From Helcococcus kunzii ATCC 51366 (GTDB lineage Bacteria > Bacillota > Clostridia > Tissierellales > Peptoniphilaceae), in NCBI RefSeq assembly GCF_000245755.1, contig NZ_JH601088.1:743235-807234 (forward strand): a DNA stretch of 64,000 bases, read 5' to 3'. This document shows positions 26,793 through 34,775 of the stretch, one piece after another (positions within the stretch are counted from its first letter, which is position 1; each line of letters starts with the position of its first letter). Position numbers and translations under genes: made by a program. The notes beneath the pieces are model-generated. The model did no database searches. It worked only from the letters and a program-made list of their open reading frames with translations, and was not told the DNA's origin.

Positions 26793-27485
26793 ATGAACAA
26801 TTTTAGAATCAAAGAAATAAAAGAAAATGAAAGACCAATGGAAAAATTACTTCAATACGGAGTTAATAGTTTAAGTAATTCTGAGTTACTTGCTATATTG
26901 ATTGGATCTGGTACAAAAAATAAAAATGCTATATATTTAGCAGAAGAAATATTAAAATATAAAATACGTGATAAAGATTTATTATATACTAGTATGGAAC
27001 AATTAATGGAAATAGACGGTATTGGTTTATCAAAAGCAAGTCGTATAATTTCTGGATTGGAATTAGGTAATAGATTAGCTAAAATCGATAAATCACAAAA
27101 TATTTCTTTATCAAGTCCAGATACAGTTGCAGAATTTCTTTACGAATATTTCAGAGATTCATATAAAGAAGAATTTTGTGTATTGTTTTTAGATACAAAA
27201 AATAAAGTTATAGGTACACAAACAGTTTCAATAGGTACGATAAATCAGTCTCTTGTACATCCAAGAGAAGTTTTTAGATATGCTATTATGAAAAATTCAA
27301 ATAGTATATTGTTAAGCCATAATCATCCAAGTGGAGATCCTACACCAAGTAAAGAAGATATCTTAATTACTGAAAGACTGATCAAAGCTGGTGAATATAT
27401 TGGCATAAAAGTTTTAGACCATTTAGTTATTGGTGATAGAAGATATATTAGTTTAAGAGCAGAGAATTTAGTTAGAGGATTTTAA
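26793..27485 (+). CDS. radC: RadC family JAMM-domain protein
   Basis: N-terminal helix-hairpin-helix segment (MEIDGIGLSKASRIISGLEL, about residues 69-88) and C-terminal JAB/MPN+ metalloprotease-like domain with ILLSHNHPSGDPTPSKED (about 170-187), giving the His-x-His...Asp zinc site. The family was linked to DNA repair but its biochemical role is unresolved. Its position directly before mreB is conserved across Firmicutes. Start follows AGGAG. Confidence 0.95.
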   Translation: MNNFRIKEIKENERPMEKLLQYGVNSLSNSELLAILIGSGTKNKNAIYLAEEILKYKIRDKDLLYTSMEQLMEIDGIGLSKASRIISGLELGNRLAKIDKSQNISLSSPDTVAEFLYEYFRDSYKEEFCVLFLDTKNKVIGTQTVSIGTINQSLVHPREVFRYAIMKNSNSILLSHNHPSGDPTPSKEDILITERLIKAGEYIGIKVLDHLVIGDRRYISLRAENLVRGF

Positions 27486-27486
27486 T

Positions 27487-28503
27487 ATGAAATTATTAAA
27501 TATTTTTGGTGCCAATTTCGCGATAGATTTAGGTACAGAAAATACATTAGTTTATAAAGAAAATGAGGGTATAATACTAAAAGAAGCATCTGTTGTCGCG
27601 GTTGATGTAAGATCGGGTGAGGTTGTTTCTGTAGGTAATAGTGCTGAACAAATGATTGGTAAATCACCAGACAATATTGTTATTGTACGTCCATTAGAAA
27701 ATGGTAGTATATCAGATTTTGATATAACGAAGATTTTATTAAAGCATTGCATGGAAAAATCTTTAGCAGCAATAAATATTATTCAGCCAAGAGTTGTTAT
27801 AACAGCTCCTACAGGTATTTCTGATATTGAAATGAGAGCTTTAGAAGATGCTTGTATATATTCCGGAGCTAGAGAAGTATATATTATAGAATCATCAATG
27901 GCTGATGCAATAGGAAATGGTCATGATATTAACTCAACTGAAGGAAAATTAATTGTTGATTTTGGTGCGGGTAATACTGAAATTGCAATTATTAGCATGA
28001 ATGGTATAGTAATTTCTAAAAATCTTCGATATGGTGGAGATTTACTAAATGAAGAAATTGTTAATTTTATTTATAGCAAGTACTCCATTTCAATAGGTTT
28101 ATCAACAGCTAAAGAACTAAAAGAAAAGATTGGTACTGTAGGTAGTTTAGATAATGCAAATCCATCAATGGAAGTTAGTGGTAGGGATGCGCTTTCAGGG
28201 ATGCCTGTTACGATTGATGTGTTTTCATCAGATATTAAAGAAGCTGTTATGAACAAAGTAAAGAAATTCATAGATGAAATAATTTATGTTTTAGAAAAGA
28301 ATCCACCAGAATTATCTAGAGATATATTAAAAAATGGTATTTTTATTACTGGTGGAGGAAGTCAATTATTAGGTTTAGATAAATTAATTCAAGATACAAT
28401 AGGGGTTAAAGTTTCTAAATCAACTACTCCATTAGAAGACACTGTTAATGGAGCAGGTATTGTAGTTTGTGATTTAAAAAAATATAAAAATTCTGGGAAA
28501 TAA
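27487..28503 (+). CDS. mreB: Rod-shape actin homologue MreB
   Basis: Actin-fold ATPase directing lateral wall synthesis. Phosphate-1 loop AIDLGTENTLVY (residues 13-24), phosphate-2 loop IVDFGAGNTEIAI (about 158-170) and adenosine motif GIFITGGGSQLLGLD (about 287-301). 338 aa, full length. It starts 1 nt after the radC stop and heads mreBCD-pbp2. Retention of mreB beside a reduced Min region is notable if the organism is coccoid. Confidence 0.95.
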   Translation: MKLLNIFGANFAIDLGTENTLVYKENEGIILKEASVVAVDVRSGEVVSVGNSAEQMIGKSPDNIVIVRPLENGSISDFDITKILLKHCMEKSLAAINIIQPRVVITAPTGISDIEMRALEDACIYSGAREVYIIESSMADAIGNGHDINSTEGKLIVDFGAGNTEIAIISMNGIVISKNLRYGGDLLNEEIVNFIYSKYSISIGLSTAKELKEKIGTVGSLDNANPSMEVSGRDALSGMPVTIDVFSSDIKEAVMNKVKKFIDEIIYVLEKNPPELSRDILKNGIFITGGGSQLLGLDKLIQDTIGVKVSKSTTPLEDTVNGAGIVVCDLKKYKNSGK

Positions 28504-28504
28504 G

Positions 28505-29347
28505 ATGTTATATTATAAAAAGAATAAATCAAAGAAAAAACACTATATCACAATATTATCATTAATTTTATTAATAATAATATCTACATTTGTGCCAAAA
28601 GCTAATTCTTTTGCATCAAAAGTTGTAAGTTATATAACAACTCCATTATCAAGGGCGACAGCTTTTGTAAATGATAGTATTAGCTCAATTATCGATTATT
28701 CAATTGGTACAAAACCAAATAGAGATATGGTAAATAAATTAACTGAGGAAAACCAAAAATTAAAAAAAGAAGTAAATGATTTAAGATATGTTGTTTCTAA
28801 TGAAAAATATCTTAAGGATTCATATGAATTTTTTAATAAAAACAATAATTTTATTAAAGCGAATATTATTATGTTGGATAATGATGAATTTTTTAAACAG
28901 TTCATTATTAATAAAGGAAAAAAACATGGGGTTAAAATGGGAGATATCATTTTAACTTCATATAGAGATAATTCAAATAATATTGTTGGAGCTTTGGTTG
29001 GTAAAGTAGTGTCTGTAGAAAATGGATCTGCGATTGTGTCTAGTATATTAGATGATAAATATAATTTTACTTTTGAAGATCTAAAAACTTCAACAATTGG
29101 TATTATTAACGAGAGAACAAATGGAATTTTGGAAGGTTATCTTTTAGAAAAAGCAGAAATTAAAGTTGGTGAAAAAGTGTATACTTCAGGAACTGGAGGA
29201 AGATACCCTAAAGGGATTTATATTGGAGAAATTGTAAGCAGTTCCGAGAGTTTTGACAGACTTAGAAGAGTTGTAAAGATTAAAAGCCCTGTAGAATTTT
29301 CTAAGATTTATGAAGTATTTGTTATGCCAAATGAGGAGATACAATGA
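28505..29347 (+). CDS. mreC: Rod-shape protein MreC
   Basis: Single N-terminal membrane span (about residues 14-33), a coiled coil (about 75-95, TEENQKLKKEVNDLR), then the extracytoplasmic double beta barrel (from about 110; GVKMGDIILTS, GALVGKVVSVENGSAIVSSI, GTGGRYPKGIYIGEIV). 280 aa. It links MreB filaments to PBP2. Its stop overlaps the mreD start (ATGA). Confidence 0.93.
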   Translation: MLYYKKNKSKKKHYITILSLILLIIISTFVPKANSFASKVVSYITTPLSRATAFVNDSISSIIDYSIGTKPNRDMVNKLTEENQKLKKEVNDLRYVVSNEKYLKDSYEFFNKNNNFIKANIIMLDNDEFFKQFIINKGKKHGVKMGDIILTSYRDNSNNIVGALVGKVVSVENGSAIVSSILDDKYNFTFEDLKTSTIGIINERTNGILEGYLLEKAEIKVGEKVYTSGTGGRYPKGIYIGEIVSSSESFDRLRRVVKIKSPVEFSKIYEVFVMPNEEIQ

Positions 29348-29838
29348 GAGGTTTTAAAATAGTCATATTATTTTTAGCTAATTTATTAATTGATTTAGTA
29401 ATACTATCAAAATATCAAATCTTTGGTGTTGTACCAAGTATAACCATTCCATTGATAGTAGTTTTGTCAATGTTTTCTAATAGAGAAAATATTGTATATT
29501 ATGCTGTTATACAAGGTATGTTCCAAGACGTAGCATTTGGAAAAATATTAGGTGTTTCAGCGCTAATCTTTTATCTAATTTCATATTACACATATGAAAC
29601 TGATATAAAAAAGAATTTTAATCTTTGGTATGGTTTATCATGTACTTTTTTAGGAGTAATTTTTTCTAAAATTAGTCATGTTGTAGTTGGTTATTTATTT
29701 GATAAGTCAATGTCATTATTGATGAGTTCTTTAATTTATGGATTGATAGCACAAGTCATTATTTCAGTAATAATTTATATCATAATTTATTTTATATTTT
29801 ATTATTTCAGAAAAAAGAGACTTAGAAATTATATTTAA
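29344..29838 (+). CDS. mreD: Rod-shape membrane protein MreD
   Basis: 164 aa with about five membrane spans; sequence is poorly conserved as usual for MreD, but FGVVPSITIPLIVVLSMFSN and the position between mreC and the PBP2 gene make the call firm. Overlaps mreC by 4 nt and is followed after 9 nt by pbp2, whose ribosome site AAGGAGG is strong. Confidence 0.88.
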   Translation: MRGFKIVILFLANLLIDLVILSKYQIFGVVPSITIPLIVVLSMFSNRENIVYYAVIQGMFQDVAFGKILGVSALIFYLISYYTYETDIKKNFNLWYGLSCTFLGVIFSKISHVVVGYLFDKSMSLLMSSLIYGLIAQVIISVIIYIIIYFIFYYFRKKRLRNYI

Positions 29839-29847
29839 GGAGGCAAT

Positions 29848-32800
29848 ATGAAAAAAAATAGATTGGCAGTAATTTTTCTAGTTTTTTTTATTGCCTTTTT
29901 AATTTTATTATCAAGATTATTTGATTTAACAATAATTAATGGCGAAAAATATAGAGAATTTTCTGATAACAATAGAATGAAACAAATCAATATAGATTCT
30001 ACAAGAGGGATTATTTATGATAAAGATGGTAAGGAATTAGCATCAAATAATCCAATGTATATATTAAATGCATACAAAGATAGATTTAATGCTATAGACA
30101 CTGAAGAAAAGAATAAAGTACTTCAAAATATTGTTAAAATATTAGAGGAAGATGGGGTTAATTATCTATCTAATTTTGAATTTGGTATATTTGAATTTCA
30201 ATATAATCAAGATGAAAAATATTTTTCAGAAAAAATATTACCATATGAAAAAGTTATTGAAATCATTCAAGAAAACAAATTACTTAAAGATATACTAAAT
30301 TCTAAATATGTAATAAATAATGATATAACATTCTATCCAATAAAAAGGATGAAGGATTATCTTGCATTACGAGGAAAGGACATTCCTGTAAAAATAACAA
30401 CCGATGGTGAAATTAAAGTTGAATTTATAAAAAATGATAAATATAAAGAGTTAATTGAAAGTAAAAAAATAAATTCAACAACAGATCCTCTTGAATACAT
30501 TTTGAGTATTTTAGAAGAAGATAAGAGTTTTATTAATTATTTATTATCTCATCCACTTTCAAGAAAATTGTCCTATGACATTATGAAAGAAAAATCATTA
30601 GCGGATGATATTGTAATTAGTGATATAGTATATAGCGCTGATTTAGGATATATTGAACAAAAGGCAAACTTAAATAAAATAACTAAGAAAATTACTCTAA
30701 AAACAAATGCAAAGGAAGATTTTGTTAACTTGGTAAAATCTACAGATGCATTGAAAACTGTATTATCAAATTCTTATAAAGATGAAAATAAGCTTGTTGT
30801 TCCTGCTTCAATATTAATCAATATGCTTGAGAAAAAAAATGTAAATACTAATTTGACATTTGCAGTTGATGAAAAAAATAATACAGTTTCTATCGATTAT
30901 ATTGAAAATAAAAATGATTCAGAATTAGCAATTGATAGACTTATAAGATTGGCAAATGAAAATAAAATTATTGATGATTTTATTTTATCTGGAGAAGTTT
31001 TAAAAAATGCTCAGACTGCATTATTTAATTCTGGAGTATATCCAAAGATATATTTAAGTGATTGGGAATATTCTTTTATAAAAGATAAACGTGATTTGTT
31101 AAATAATAAAGATGAAAAAATGACTGCAAAAGAATTATTTAACGAATTCAAAAAAGAAGATTCTTTAGAAAGATATGATGATTATTTAGCTTATAGTATG
31201 TTAAATATATCAAAGAGTATTGATTCAAATGGTTATTTAGCGTATAAACCGACAACTATTGCTAAAAATATTAACTATGATTCAGTGATGAAAATTGAAG
31301 AAATTATACCTAAAGATGCGGGATTTGAAGTTGTTGTCGAGTCAAATAGAGTATATCCAAATAAAAATTCTGCTTCACATTTATTAGGTTATATAGGTAA
31401 TATTTCTGAAAAATTTGAAATAGAAAAATTCATAGAATATAAACAATATGATTTAAATGATATTGTTGGTAAATCAGGATTAGAAGAAAGTTTTGAAGAT
31501 ACATTAAGGGGTTCTAAAGGTAAGAGGTTAGTTTATACTGATGTATATGGTAGAACAACTGACGTTATAGAAGAAACAAATGCTGTTCCAGGAAATAATT
31601 TATATACTACAATTAATATTGACTTTCAAAAAGAAGTAGAAAAAATTGTAGAGGATTCAATTCATTCAATAAGTACTGGAGAAGAATATAATAGTTACTT
31701 CGGAAAATATCCTATTACACGTGGATCAAAAGCTCAGATAGGTTCTGCTGTAGTTATGGATGTAAAGACTGGAAATATCCTAGCTATGGTATCAAAACCA
31801 GATTATGATCCTAATTTATTTGTAAATGGAATTTCAAACTATGATTGGAAGAAATTAAACGAGAGCAATCCAGATGATATATATGCTCCAAGACCAATTT
31901 TAAATAATGTATTGCAATCAGCATTTACACCTGGTTCTACATTTAAAACTGTAACATCTCTTGCTGCTTTAGAAAATGGATTAAATCCAGAGCAGTTAAT
32001 AAATAACTTTGGTTATGTTGATGTTGGTGATAATAGATTTAACGAATTAATCTATACTTTATATAAAGGAAGATGGGGATATCTAAATCTTTATGATGCA
32101 TTAAAAGTATCATCCAACTATTATTTCTATGTATTGGGATTGGGATATAACCCAAATGTACCAAATGAAAAAGATACAAAAGTTTCACTTGAAGATATTG
32201 AAAGTATTACTTCAAGATTGGGAATGCAAAGTAAAACAAATGTAGAAATAAATTATCCAGCAGAATCCTCAGGATATTATCCAAATTTATTTGGTAAGAG
32301 ATCAATTTTAAAGGCGAGATTAAAACAAGTTTTAGATAAAGATTTATCGAAATATATTAAGCCAGGAATTAATCTTTTAGAAACAAAATTAGAAGATGAT
32401 ATAGCAACTATATTATCTTGGATAGATGCTGGTCCAACAATGACTAGAGCAAGTATTGTTGAAGAACTTGAAAATATGCAATATGATACGACTAAAATTC
32501 TTGAAAATAATAAAGAAACTTTAGCAGATATCATCAAATACAGTTACGTAAATATGGCAAAATGGACACAATCAGACTCTGTTAATATGGTTATTGGTCA
32601 AGGGCAAAACGCATATACTCCAATGCAAATGGTGCAACTAACTGGTATACTAGCAAATGAAGGCAAGTTTGTGCATCCAACATTGGTTTCAAAAATTATG
32701 AATTACGACAATTCAAAGACCATTTTTACACAAACTCCAAAAATTACAGAGACTGGTATTAAACCAGAATACTTCAAGCATGTTAAAGAAGGTATGAGAA

Positions 32801-33141
32801 GAGCTTCAATAGATGTTTTATATAGAAATAACTTACCTTTTGAAGTAGGCTCAAAAACTGGTACTGCACAATTAGGTGGAATTGATCCAGATACAGGCGA
32901 ACAATATGATGATTTAGTATCAGAGATTGCATTTGCGCCATTTGATAAACCAGAGATTGCGGTATATTTCTCAGTTGTTGAAGGAAGTAAATCAAAGAAC
33001 GTAAGAGCGGCAAATAATGATATAATTTACGCTTATTACAAATATGTGAAGAAAGACTCTCGATTCAAAAATACACGAATTGGGGAAGTGTCTGTTGAAG
33101 AAAAAAATAATGAAACTATAGAAGAAACTCAAGATGAATAG
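29848..33141 (+). CDS. mrdA: Penicillin-binding protein 2 (elongasome transpeptidase), unusually long
   Basis: Class B PBP. Membrane anchor at residues 8-28; PBP dimer region; transpeptidase domain with SxxK at Ser697 (GSTFK), SxN at 755-757 (SSN) and KTG at 1003-1005 (SKTGTAQ). It cross-links peptidoglycan with MreBCD and RodA. At 1097 aa it is far longer than E. coli PBP2 (about 630). The extra length lies mainly before the catalytic domain (about residues 70-480, charged and Lys/Asp/Glu-rich) with some inside it (about 800-880). No rodA gene accompanies it. Confidence 0.93.
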   Translation: MKKNRLAVIFLVFFIAFLILLSRLFDLTIINGEKYREFSDNNRMKQINIDSTRGIIYDKDGKELASNNPMYILNAYKDRFNAIDTEEKNKVLQNIVKILEEDGVNYLSNFEFGIFEFQYNQDEKYFSEKILPYEKVIEIIQENKLLKDILNSKYVINNDITFYPIKRMKDYLALRGKDIPVKITTDGEIKVEFIKNDKYKELIESKKINSTTDPLEYILSILEEDKSFINYLLSHPLSRKLSYDIMKEKSLADDIVISDIVYSADLGYIEQKANLNKITKKITLKTNAKEDFVNLVKSTDALKTVLSNSYKDENKLVVPASILINMLEKKNVNTNLTFAVDEKNNTVSIDYIENKNDSELAIDRLIRLANENKIIDDFILSGEVLKNAQTALFNSGVYPKIYLSDWEYSFIKDKRDLLNNKDEKMTAKELFNEFKKEDSLERYDDYLAYSMLNISKSIDSNGYLAYKPTTIAKNINYDSVMKIEEIIPKDAGFEVVVESNRVYPNKNSASHLLGYIGNISEKFEIEKFIEYKQYDLNDIVGKSGLEESFEDTLRGSKGKRLVYTDVYGRTTDVIEETNAVPGNNLYTTINIDFQKEVEKIVEDSIHSISTGEEYNSYFGKYPITRGSKAQIGSAVVMDVKTGNILAMVSKPDYDPNLFVNGISNYDWKKLNESNPDDIYAPRPILNNVLQSAFTPGSTFKTVTSLAALENGLNPEQLINNFGYVDVGDNRFNELIYTLYKGRWGYLNLYDALKVSSNYYFYVLGLGYNPNVPNEKDTKVSLEDIESITSRLGMQSKTNVEINYPAESSGYYPNLFGKRSILKARLKQVLDKDLSKYIKPGINLLETKLEDDIATILSWIDAGPTMTRASIVEELENMQYDTTKILENNKETLADIIKYSYVNMAKWTQSDSVNMVIGQGQNAYTPMQMVQLTGILANEGKFVHPTLVSKIMNYDNSKTIFTQTPKITETGIKPEYFKHVKEGMRRASIDVLYRNNLPFEVGSKTGTAQLGGIDPDTGEQYDDLVSEIAFAPFDKPEIAVYFSVVEGSKSKNVRAANNDIIYAYYKYVKKDSRFKNTRIGEVSVEEKNNETIEETQDE

Positions 33142-33169
33142 TTCATTTGAATTATTTTAGAGGTGATAT

Positions 33170-33769
33170 ATGAGAAGAATATATTTTGATACAAATAAGA
33201 AAAGTGAATTCATCAAAAGATTTCCAGAAATACTTAAGAGTGTTTCTGGAAAATCTTTAATAATAAGTTTAATTCAAGAAAATAGAGAATTAGAAGATGC
33301 TCTTGATGTCTTGGATATGATAATTTATGATAATTCAGATTATATTTCTAATATTATAGATTTTGATAAAGCAATTTTGGAATTAGATGACGAAAATTAT
33401 TTATTGCCATCATCATATAAAATGAAAAATACAGATTTTGATTTTGAATTATTAAATAAAGACATAGAGTCGTTTTTAGATGAAGAGATAAAAAATATTT
33501 TTATATTATTTGATGATAATCTAAAAATAGATAATAAACCTGATACAATAAAAATAGTAGATGAAAATTCTGAAGAAGCTAATAATGTAATTATTATTGG
33601 AAAAAATCATAATATTGATAAGTTTTCTAATATAAGAGGATTTCTAAATGATGATGAAGATGATTTTAATGAATTAATTGAAAATATTATTAACGATAAT
33701 TACATTATAAAAAAAGAAAAAAAAGGTATATTGGAAAAAATAAAAGGATTATTTTCAAGAAATGGATAA
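33170..33769 (+). CDS. MinD-like protein without Walker A (degenerate MinD)
   Basis: 199 aa. The pattern follows MinD: KSLIISLIQENRELEDALDV matches the strand and helix where MinD has the deviant-loop Asp, then DMIIYDNSDYISNI, ILELDDENYLLPSSYK (MinD reads NLYLLPASQT) and EEIKNIFILFDD (MinD ...YVIID). The C-terminus GILEKIKGLFSRNG is an amphipathic helix like the MinD membrane-targeting sequence. The GKGGVGKT nucleotide loop is gone (TNKKSEF in its place) and the C-terminal half is shortened (MinD is about 265 aa). The position after pbp2 is where clostridia carry minC-minD. Probably a pseudo-ATPase that still binds membrane. Strong GAGGTGAT ribosome site. Confidence 0.7.
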   Translation: MRRIYFDTNKKSEFIKRFPEILKSVSGKSLIISLIQENRELEDALDVLDMIIYDNSDYISNIIDFDKAILELDDENYLLPSSYKMKNTDFDFELLNKDIESFLDEEIKNIFILFDDNLKIDNKPDTIKIVDENSEEANNVIIIGKNHNIDKFSNIRGFLNDDEDDFNELIENIINDNYIIKKEKKGILEKIKGLFSRNG

Positions 33770-34745
33770 TTTTAGATTTGTATATAAGGATGAAAATAAT
33801 GACTGTGTAGGGGAGATAAAAAATAGTAGACTAATCCTATATCAAGACCTAAAAAATCAAATAGAAGGCAATATTTATCGAGTTAGAGTAGATTCCTATA
33901 TCAACTCTATGGATGCTTATATATTAAATATTGGAGAATTTAAAAACGCCATTCTTAGAAGGAGAAATATTGTAAGTGATTTTAAAGTAGGTGAAGATAT
34001 AATTGTTGAAGTTTTATTTGTACCCAATGATGATAAATTGATTGAAGTGACACAGTATATTTCGATTTCAGATGGTTATATTGTTCTTTTACCTTTTGTT
34101 AAATCAAATAGTCCAAAGATAAAAAATGATTTAACTATATCTTATACCTTAAGAACAAAAGCTAAAGATTTACCAAAAGAAGAGATTTTATTTAGATATA
34201 ATAATTTATTAAATGATTTTTCACATTTGCAAAAAGAAATAAATAAATTGCCTACTCCTAAATTACTTAGGAAAGGTAAATTTTTGACTAATTTTTGCTT
34301 AGATTATGATGGAGAAATTATATCAAATTATAAATTAAAATTTGCTTCTATTATTGATGCTAAGTTTAATCCAAAATATGATAGAGAGATATCTACTTCG
34401 ATAGCTAAAATTGATGATAGAAAAATTGAAATTGATAAGACCTCTATTTATATAGATCAACTAGAAGCTTTAACTGTTGTTGATGTCAATTCTGGTAGTA
34501 AATTTATGGATAGATCAAAAGAAGATATGTCATTATCGACTAATTTATCGGTGATTGAAGAGATTGTAATTCAAATATCTTTAAGAAATATAAAGAAAAT
34601 GGTTTTAATTGATTTTATAAGAGTAAATAATAGAAATAAAGCAAAGATAATAGATAAATTAAAACAGAAATTTGAAGAGTATAATATTAAGGCAAAAATC
34701 TTAGGTTTTAGTCGATTGGAATTATTGGAAATAATAATATTTTAA
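33762..34745 (+). CDS. rng: Ribonuclease E/G family protein, C-terminally short
   Basis: S1-like N-terminal segment (about residues 35-110; IYRVRVDSYINSMDAYILNIG) and DNase I-like catalytic region with EALTVVDVNSG (about 240-250) and KMVLIDFIRVNN (about 284-295), the sites of the two Mg2+-binding Asp residues. It ends at ILGFSRLELLEIIIF, just where other RNase G proteins continue with the R-T-R segment and the CPxC Zn-link needed for dimer formation; both are absent. Overlaps the MinD-like gene by 8 nt. The rng-rplU order is conserved in clostridia. Confidence 0.85.
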   Translation: MDNFRFVYKDENNDCVGEIKNSRLILYQDLKNQIEGNIYRVRVDSYINSMDAYILNIGEFKNAILRRRNIVSDFKVGEDIIVEVLFVPNDDKLIEVTQYISISDGYIVLLPFVKSNSPKIKNDLTISYTLRTKAKDLPKEEILFRYNNLLNDFSHLQKEINKLPTPKLLRKGKFLTNFCLDYDGEIISNYKLKFASIIDAKFNPKYDREISTSIAKIDDRKIEIDKTSIYIDQLEALTVVDVNSGSKFMDRSKEDMSLSTNLSVIEEIVIQISLRNIKKMVLIDFIRVNNRNKAKIIDKLKQKFEEYNIKAKILGFSRLELLEIIIF

Positions 34746-34746
34746 T

Positions 34747-34775
34747 TTGACATTGATTACTTATAATGTTATAAT
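34747..34775 (+). promoter_or_regulatory. Strong promoter of rplU-prp-rpmA
   Basis: TTGACA (34747-34752), 17 bp, TATAAT (34770-34775): a full consensus promoter. Confidence 0.92.

Follow-up and report, generated by a model that had tools for sequence, protein, structure and literature searches.

A predicted nucleotide-free, membrane-docked pseudo-MinD in the minD slot of Helcococcus kunzii and its relatives

MinD is the textbook membrane switch and works through ATP cycling. The ParA/Soj, FlhG/FleN and McdA proteins have other partners and are ATP-dependent, with McdA deviating in the signature lysine. In Escherichia coli the membrane helix of MinD is described as weak, so that two or more copies, and hence ATP dimers, are required (PMC6803595). 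For Bacillus subtilis it is reported that monomeric MinD binds membranes, and that the K16A mutant, which does not bind ATP, is membrane-bound, leaves slowly and spreads evenly along the membrane; such monomers are said there not to interact with MinC (PMC13246001). Here we describe a gene, called X below, in a 64,000-nucleotide stretch of the Helcococcus kunzii ATCC 51366 genome (contig NZ_JH601088.1, positions 743,235 to 807,234; the window). X descends from minD and has remained in the minD slot, as gene position and profile homology show, and our best reading is that it encodes a nucleotide-free, membrane-docked pseudo-MinD under selection, its fold and membrane helix being predictions.

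Gene position and homology to MinD

The gene and its features lie in the window as follows.

33170..33769, plus strand: the pseudo-MinD gene X (199 aa, ATG start), from the open reading frame (ORF) list, profile search, profile-profile match and model
33160..33167, plus strand: Shine-Dalgarno-like GAGGTGAT, read directly, its first base ten bases before the ATG
33188..33211, plus strand: codons 7-14, the place of the MinD Walker A, reading DTNKKSEF in the alignment with MinDs
33317..33346, plus strand: codons 50-59, including the conserved IIYDNSDY; Y53, D54 and D57 align with MinD Y58, D59 and D62
33719..33766, plus strand: codons 184-199, KKGILEKIKGLFSRNG, C-terminal amphipathic helix and predicted membrane-targeting sequence, from model and pattern

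The local gene order is radC-mreB-mreC-mreD-pbp2-X-rng-rplU-ysxB-rpmA-obgE. Five outgroup regions came from the same taxonomic order as H. kunzii. Three of them (L156, L157 and L159) share the arrangement radC-mreBCD-pbp2-minC-minD-...-rSAM-rSAM-associated-rng-rplU. A fourth (L160) matches it up to minD, with rng not reached in the region, and the fifth (L158) contains minC-minD-rSAM-rng-rplU, mreBCD-pbp2 not being found beside it. The order pbp2-minC-minD is thus present in four of the five regions, and X stands in the minD slot with minC gone from there.

Conventional searches of the X ORF return little: Pfam and NCBIfam scans gave no relevant match, TIGR01968 (MinD; curated cut-off 212.9 bits) gave none, and with matches allowed up to E 10 the sole PDB sequence retrieved was Aquifex MinD 4v02, at a weak E of 0.16. 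A profile built from X sequences with no MinD row matched 14 MinDs with an HH probability of 96.5%, a score of 68 and E 9.4e-10. The score was 66.8 after the two rows carrying GIGKT were dropped, and the controls reached at most 16.0 (50 column-shuffled profiles) and 13.8 and 15.7 (two reversed). An AlphaFold2 model built from the X profile without templates or MinD rows has a pLDDT of 89.7 and a pTM of 0.85. Foldseek places MinD or MinCD chains at ranks 1-5 for this model (best E 1.3e-5; TM-score by query 0.50-0.55), while in VIA-align ParA-like and CobB-like chains tie with MinD; ParA/Soj, FlhG/FleN and McdA share the fold class and have Z scores in the same range. X is therefore predicted to keep the MinD fold: the model falls in the MinD/ParA class, MinD entries head the Foldseek ranking, and the structure unrelated to MinD that would have refuted the initial annotation did not appear. 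We rejected X as a ParA/Soj, since the genome has a separate parA-parB pair and X has no P-loop.

Of 250 genomes from the order, 85 have a MinD above its cut-off and 85 a MinC (PF03775) above its own. In the family of H. kunzii, which consists of anaerobic bacteria, each of the two is present in one genome of 131, for MinD that of G062. In the H. kunzii genome (99.3% complete), the PF03775 search gave no MinC match, and no other MinD was found: the two MinD-profile matches, both below cut-off, are a Soj/ParA beside ParB and an Mrp/NBP35-type ATPase, as read from sequence and neighbours. The initial annotation, made from the window alone, had placed X in the clostridial minD slot and reported minC missing. 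Outgroup synteny and profile homology back the first statement and the PF03775 search the second, and a full minCDE elsewhere in this genome is opposed by the absence of a detected MinC or second MinD, MinE not being searched for. MinC loss seems to have preceded P-loop loss, because one relative (G044, 100% complete) keeps a canonical P-loop with no MinC match.

X thus resembles MinD (TIGR01968; PDB 4v02, 3q9l) in gene slot, predicted fold, IIYDxxD segment and C-terminal amphipathic helix pattern. It differs in having neither the deviant Walker A nor the switch-I Asp, in falling below the family cut-off, in the absence of a MinC match from its genome and in length: the 14 aligned outgroup MinDs have 263-270 aa, so the earlier estimate that X is about 65 residues short is correct. 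The ribosome site and the overlap with the RNase E/G gene that the initial annotation noted are present (GAGGTGAT; 8 bases). The start of the X coding sequence also contains, at 33221-33252, a hairpin of 14 pairs followed by a T-rich tail.

Graded loss of the ATP site and signs of selection

A protein search yielded nine clusters of X, that of H. kunzii included. The profile built from them matched 19 of the 131 family genomes, and a wider X profile matched 58 of 131 at E 1e-4. We then examined the stretch after pbp2 in all 97 genomes in which a long PBP2 was found, made up of 18 relatives, the window and 78 further genomes. A slot protein is present in 60, MinC in G062, and nothing is detectable in 36, among which a few contigs end soon (G050, G063). 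Genus g2 contributes seven copies whose profile matches are weak (E 2e-3 to 5e-9); they were counted also for their slot and GG.GTS loop. In three further genomes (G043, G044, G114) X lies beside radC, bringing the total to 63 slot proteins in 131 family genomes. The frame is unbroken in 62 and frameshifted in one (G038). Shortened copies of 142 and 165 aa exist; the natural 142-aa form (L024:8618-9046) retains the N-terminal half and the end helix.

The 62 unbroken proteins were aligned to six outgroup MinDs. GKGGxGK[ST] is present in two (G043, G044), GxxxxGK[ST] alone in 14 and neither in 46, with intermediate loops such as AIGGVGKS (G060), KGGVGTS (G065), KGGVGSS (G074), RGGVGCT (G130) and VGGCGTS (g2). 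The P-loop has thus been lost by degrees and across the family, which goes beyond what the initial annotation could see; its statement that X has no Walker A holds, the aligned residues reading DTNKKSEF. In contrast, the IYDxxD motif is retained (Tyr58 in 58, Asp59 in 59 and Asp62 in 61 of 62). Pairwise identity, averaged over 16 genus representatives that lack GxxxxGK[ST], amounts to 0.15 in the P-loop and 0.14 in MinD 122-245, against 0.31 in MinD 47-66 and 0.27 at the C-terminus. When the tree is built from the sequence outside the P-loop part, the P-loop state requires 6 changes versus a shuffled mean of 20.5, and the starred branches force 4 changes for the loop-less group. The P-loop was likely shed several separate times in the family.

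X might still bind a nucleotide or another ligand in a remodelled pocket and act as a different switch. GxxxxGK[ST] in 14 of 62 and a Walker B Asp in 38 of 62 mean that binding could persist in a subset. However, the switch-I residues D38 and D40 are absent from all 14 GxxxxGK[ST] forms, and the H. kunzii copy lacks a glycine-rich loop and, by alignment with MinDs, carries Leu at the Walker B position, Ser for D38 and Ile for D40. We consider a ligand-driven switch very improbable.

A second alternative is slow decay, in which a once-useful MinD is drifting off with little or no function. The graded P-loop loss, the 36 of 97 slots with no detected copy, the single frameshift and the 142- and 165-aa copies could all be read this way, as could the finding that in 10 of the 13 close loop-less pairs X evolves more rapidly than rng. 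In those pairs (dS 0.1-0.75), however, dN/dS is 0.029-0.408 in 13 of 13; the pairs share species and hence are not independent. In the trio G015, G023 and G026, X is the more constrained (dN/dS 0.03-0.07 versus 0.11-0.14 for rng). Six pairs within the genus of H. kunzii give weaker values, 0.39-0.71 at dS 0.89-1.21, a range in which the simple method becomes uncertain, and these too fit decay. When substitutions were simulated neutrally along half the path to G057 or G058, none of 1000 frames stayed open. At five close distances a fraction of 0.02-0.39 survived, so an open frame alone proves little there. Together with the 62 of 63 intact frames, the retained YD..D residues and the confident predicted fold, these results make slow decay unlikely, and we rejected X as a pseudogene. 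The view that X is not simply a pseudogene is thus upheld by intact frames and by the selection check among relatives, run as pairwise dN/dS, and the frameshifts that would have spoken against it are limited to G038.

The C-terminal helix and the neighbouring genes

The model places a helix at residues 187-197 of X with low confidence (block means 57 and 51). A C-terminal pattern (two hydrophobic, one polar, one basic-or-Asn and one hydrophobic residue), defined after the sequences were seen, occurs in 54 of 63 C-termini (62 from slot proteins and one from the G062 MinD); the corresponding counts are 81 of 908 for internal pieces and 5 of 140 for the C-termini of neighbours. Counted over the final 20 residues, net charge has a median of +4 in the genus of H. 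kunzii, +3 in other X and +1 in outgroup MinDs, with RNase C-termini also at +3. Hydrophobic-moment shuffles reach p 0.05 in 8 of 60 X proteins and in one of 14 true MinDs, a single-sequence test without power. The pattern and the low-confidence model, not the hydrophobic moment, support the proposed retention of a MinD-like C-terminal amphipathic helix, which is predicted to target the membrane.

The adjoining genes are listed below.

29848..33141, plus strand: pbp2 (1097 aa), upstream neighbour of X, from ORF and family match
33762..34745, plus strand: rng, a short RNase E/G (327 aa) with an 8-base overlap with the end of X, from ORF and family match
26793..29838, plus strand: radC-mreB-mreC-mreD, upstream synteny kept among relatives, from ORFs and synteny

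The initial annotation proposed that X is an ATP-independent membrane adaptor for PBP2 or RNase E/G. Of this, the loss of the ATP-binding residues holds, and a membrane helix is predicted. Tight linkage would suit an adaptor that tethers either neighbour to the membrane: in every one of the 18 relatives retrieved first, X immediately follows pbp2, rng is directly next in 14 of these, and the overlap of a few bases with rng recurs in several genera. However, X is kept with no match for MreC or long PBP2 in G043, G044 and G114, and with no RNase E/G match in ten genomes (G016, G019, G020, G021, G024, G031, G032, G033, G035 and G114), nine of which belong to genus g3 and are 97-99% complete. The source names of similar proteins suggest that g3 is Anaerococcus. 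Conversely, X is undetected in several genomes with adjoining pbp2 and rng, for example in g5 and g28. Since neither PBP2/MreC nor RNase E/G is obligatory, it is unlikely that either accounts for the conservation of X, and we regard tethering of these operon neighbours as decidedly unlikely.

The neighbours have features of their own. PBP2 is very long, at 1097 aa here and 1111-1140 aa in the four outgroup regions holding it, against a usual length of 600-700. In G037, mreC is matched in two separate frames, as if split (G037:C1:750405-750862). The short RNase E/G of H. kunzii scores 111 bits against a 326-bit subfamily cut-off and reads IDFIRV where the G043 copy has VDFVDM, with the DxN stretch and the first Asp retained; many relatives are alike, and 42 of 131 family genomes give no RNase E/G match. 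Before rplU, 34747-34775 holds a perfect sigma-70 promoter (TTGACA-17-TATAAT with TG).

A MinD that probably does without the cycle

We consider it probable that X is a minD descendant left in its slot after minC was lost, with a MinD fold as predicted, the residues for binding and hydrolysing ATP gone, and a likely place on the membrane without cycling. With no ATP bound, X would form no ATP-sandwich dimer and undergo no hydrolysis-driven release, so the C-terminal helix would keep the monomer on the membrane, by analogy with B. subtilis MinD K16A. In that case the conserved IYDxxD helix would form the surface that holds another protein at the membrane, or support the fold of that surface, and X would act as a constitutive membrane anchor. 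Because X survives without MreC/PBP2 and without RNase E/G, its partner is likely to be found among general division or envelope proteins rather than among its operon neighbours.

The closest described counterparts are the B. subtilis K16A and G12V mutants, whose reported behaviour as monomers on the membrane is that expected of X (PMC13246001). As described in that source, they are laboratory mutants and Min-defective, whereas the state of X is natural, is under selection in relatives and occurs where MinC is gone. By this analogy, X is likely a natural version of the K16A-like monomer state in a genome without MinC.

More tentatively, and somewhat short of calling it probable, we suggest that an old job of MinD needs neither ATP nor MinC and that the whole family has kept only this job. 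A nucleotide-free pseudo-enzyme would then have arisen several separate times after MinC loss, with fold, IYDxxD face and membrane helix preserved on each occasion. The setting is lineages in which no Min system is detectable, and for H. kunzii a search for DivIVA also gave no match. Natural MinDs that are under selection without an ATP site would mean that part of the MinD role requires neither the cycle nor MinC, and the intermediate series in this family (a canonical loop in the absence of MinC, a loop missing its lysine, and no loop left) makes that part separable by experiment.
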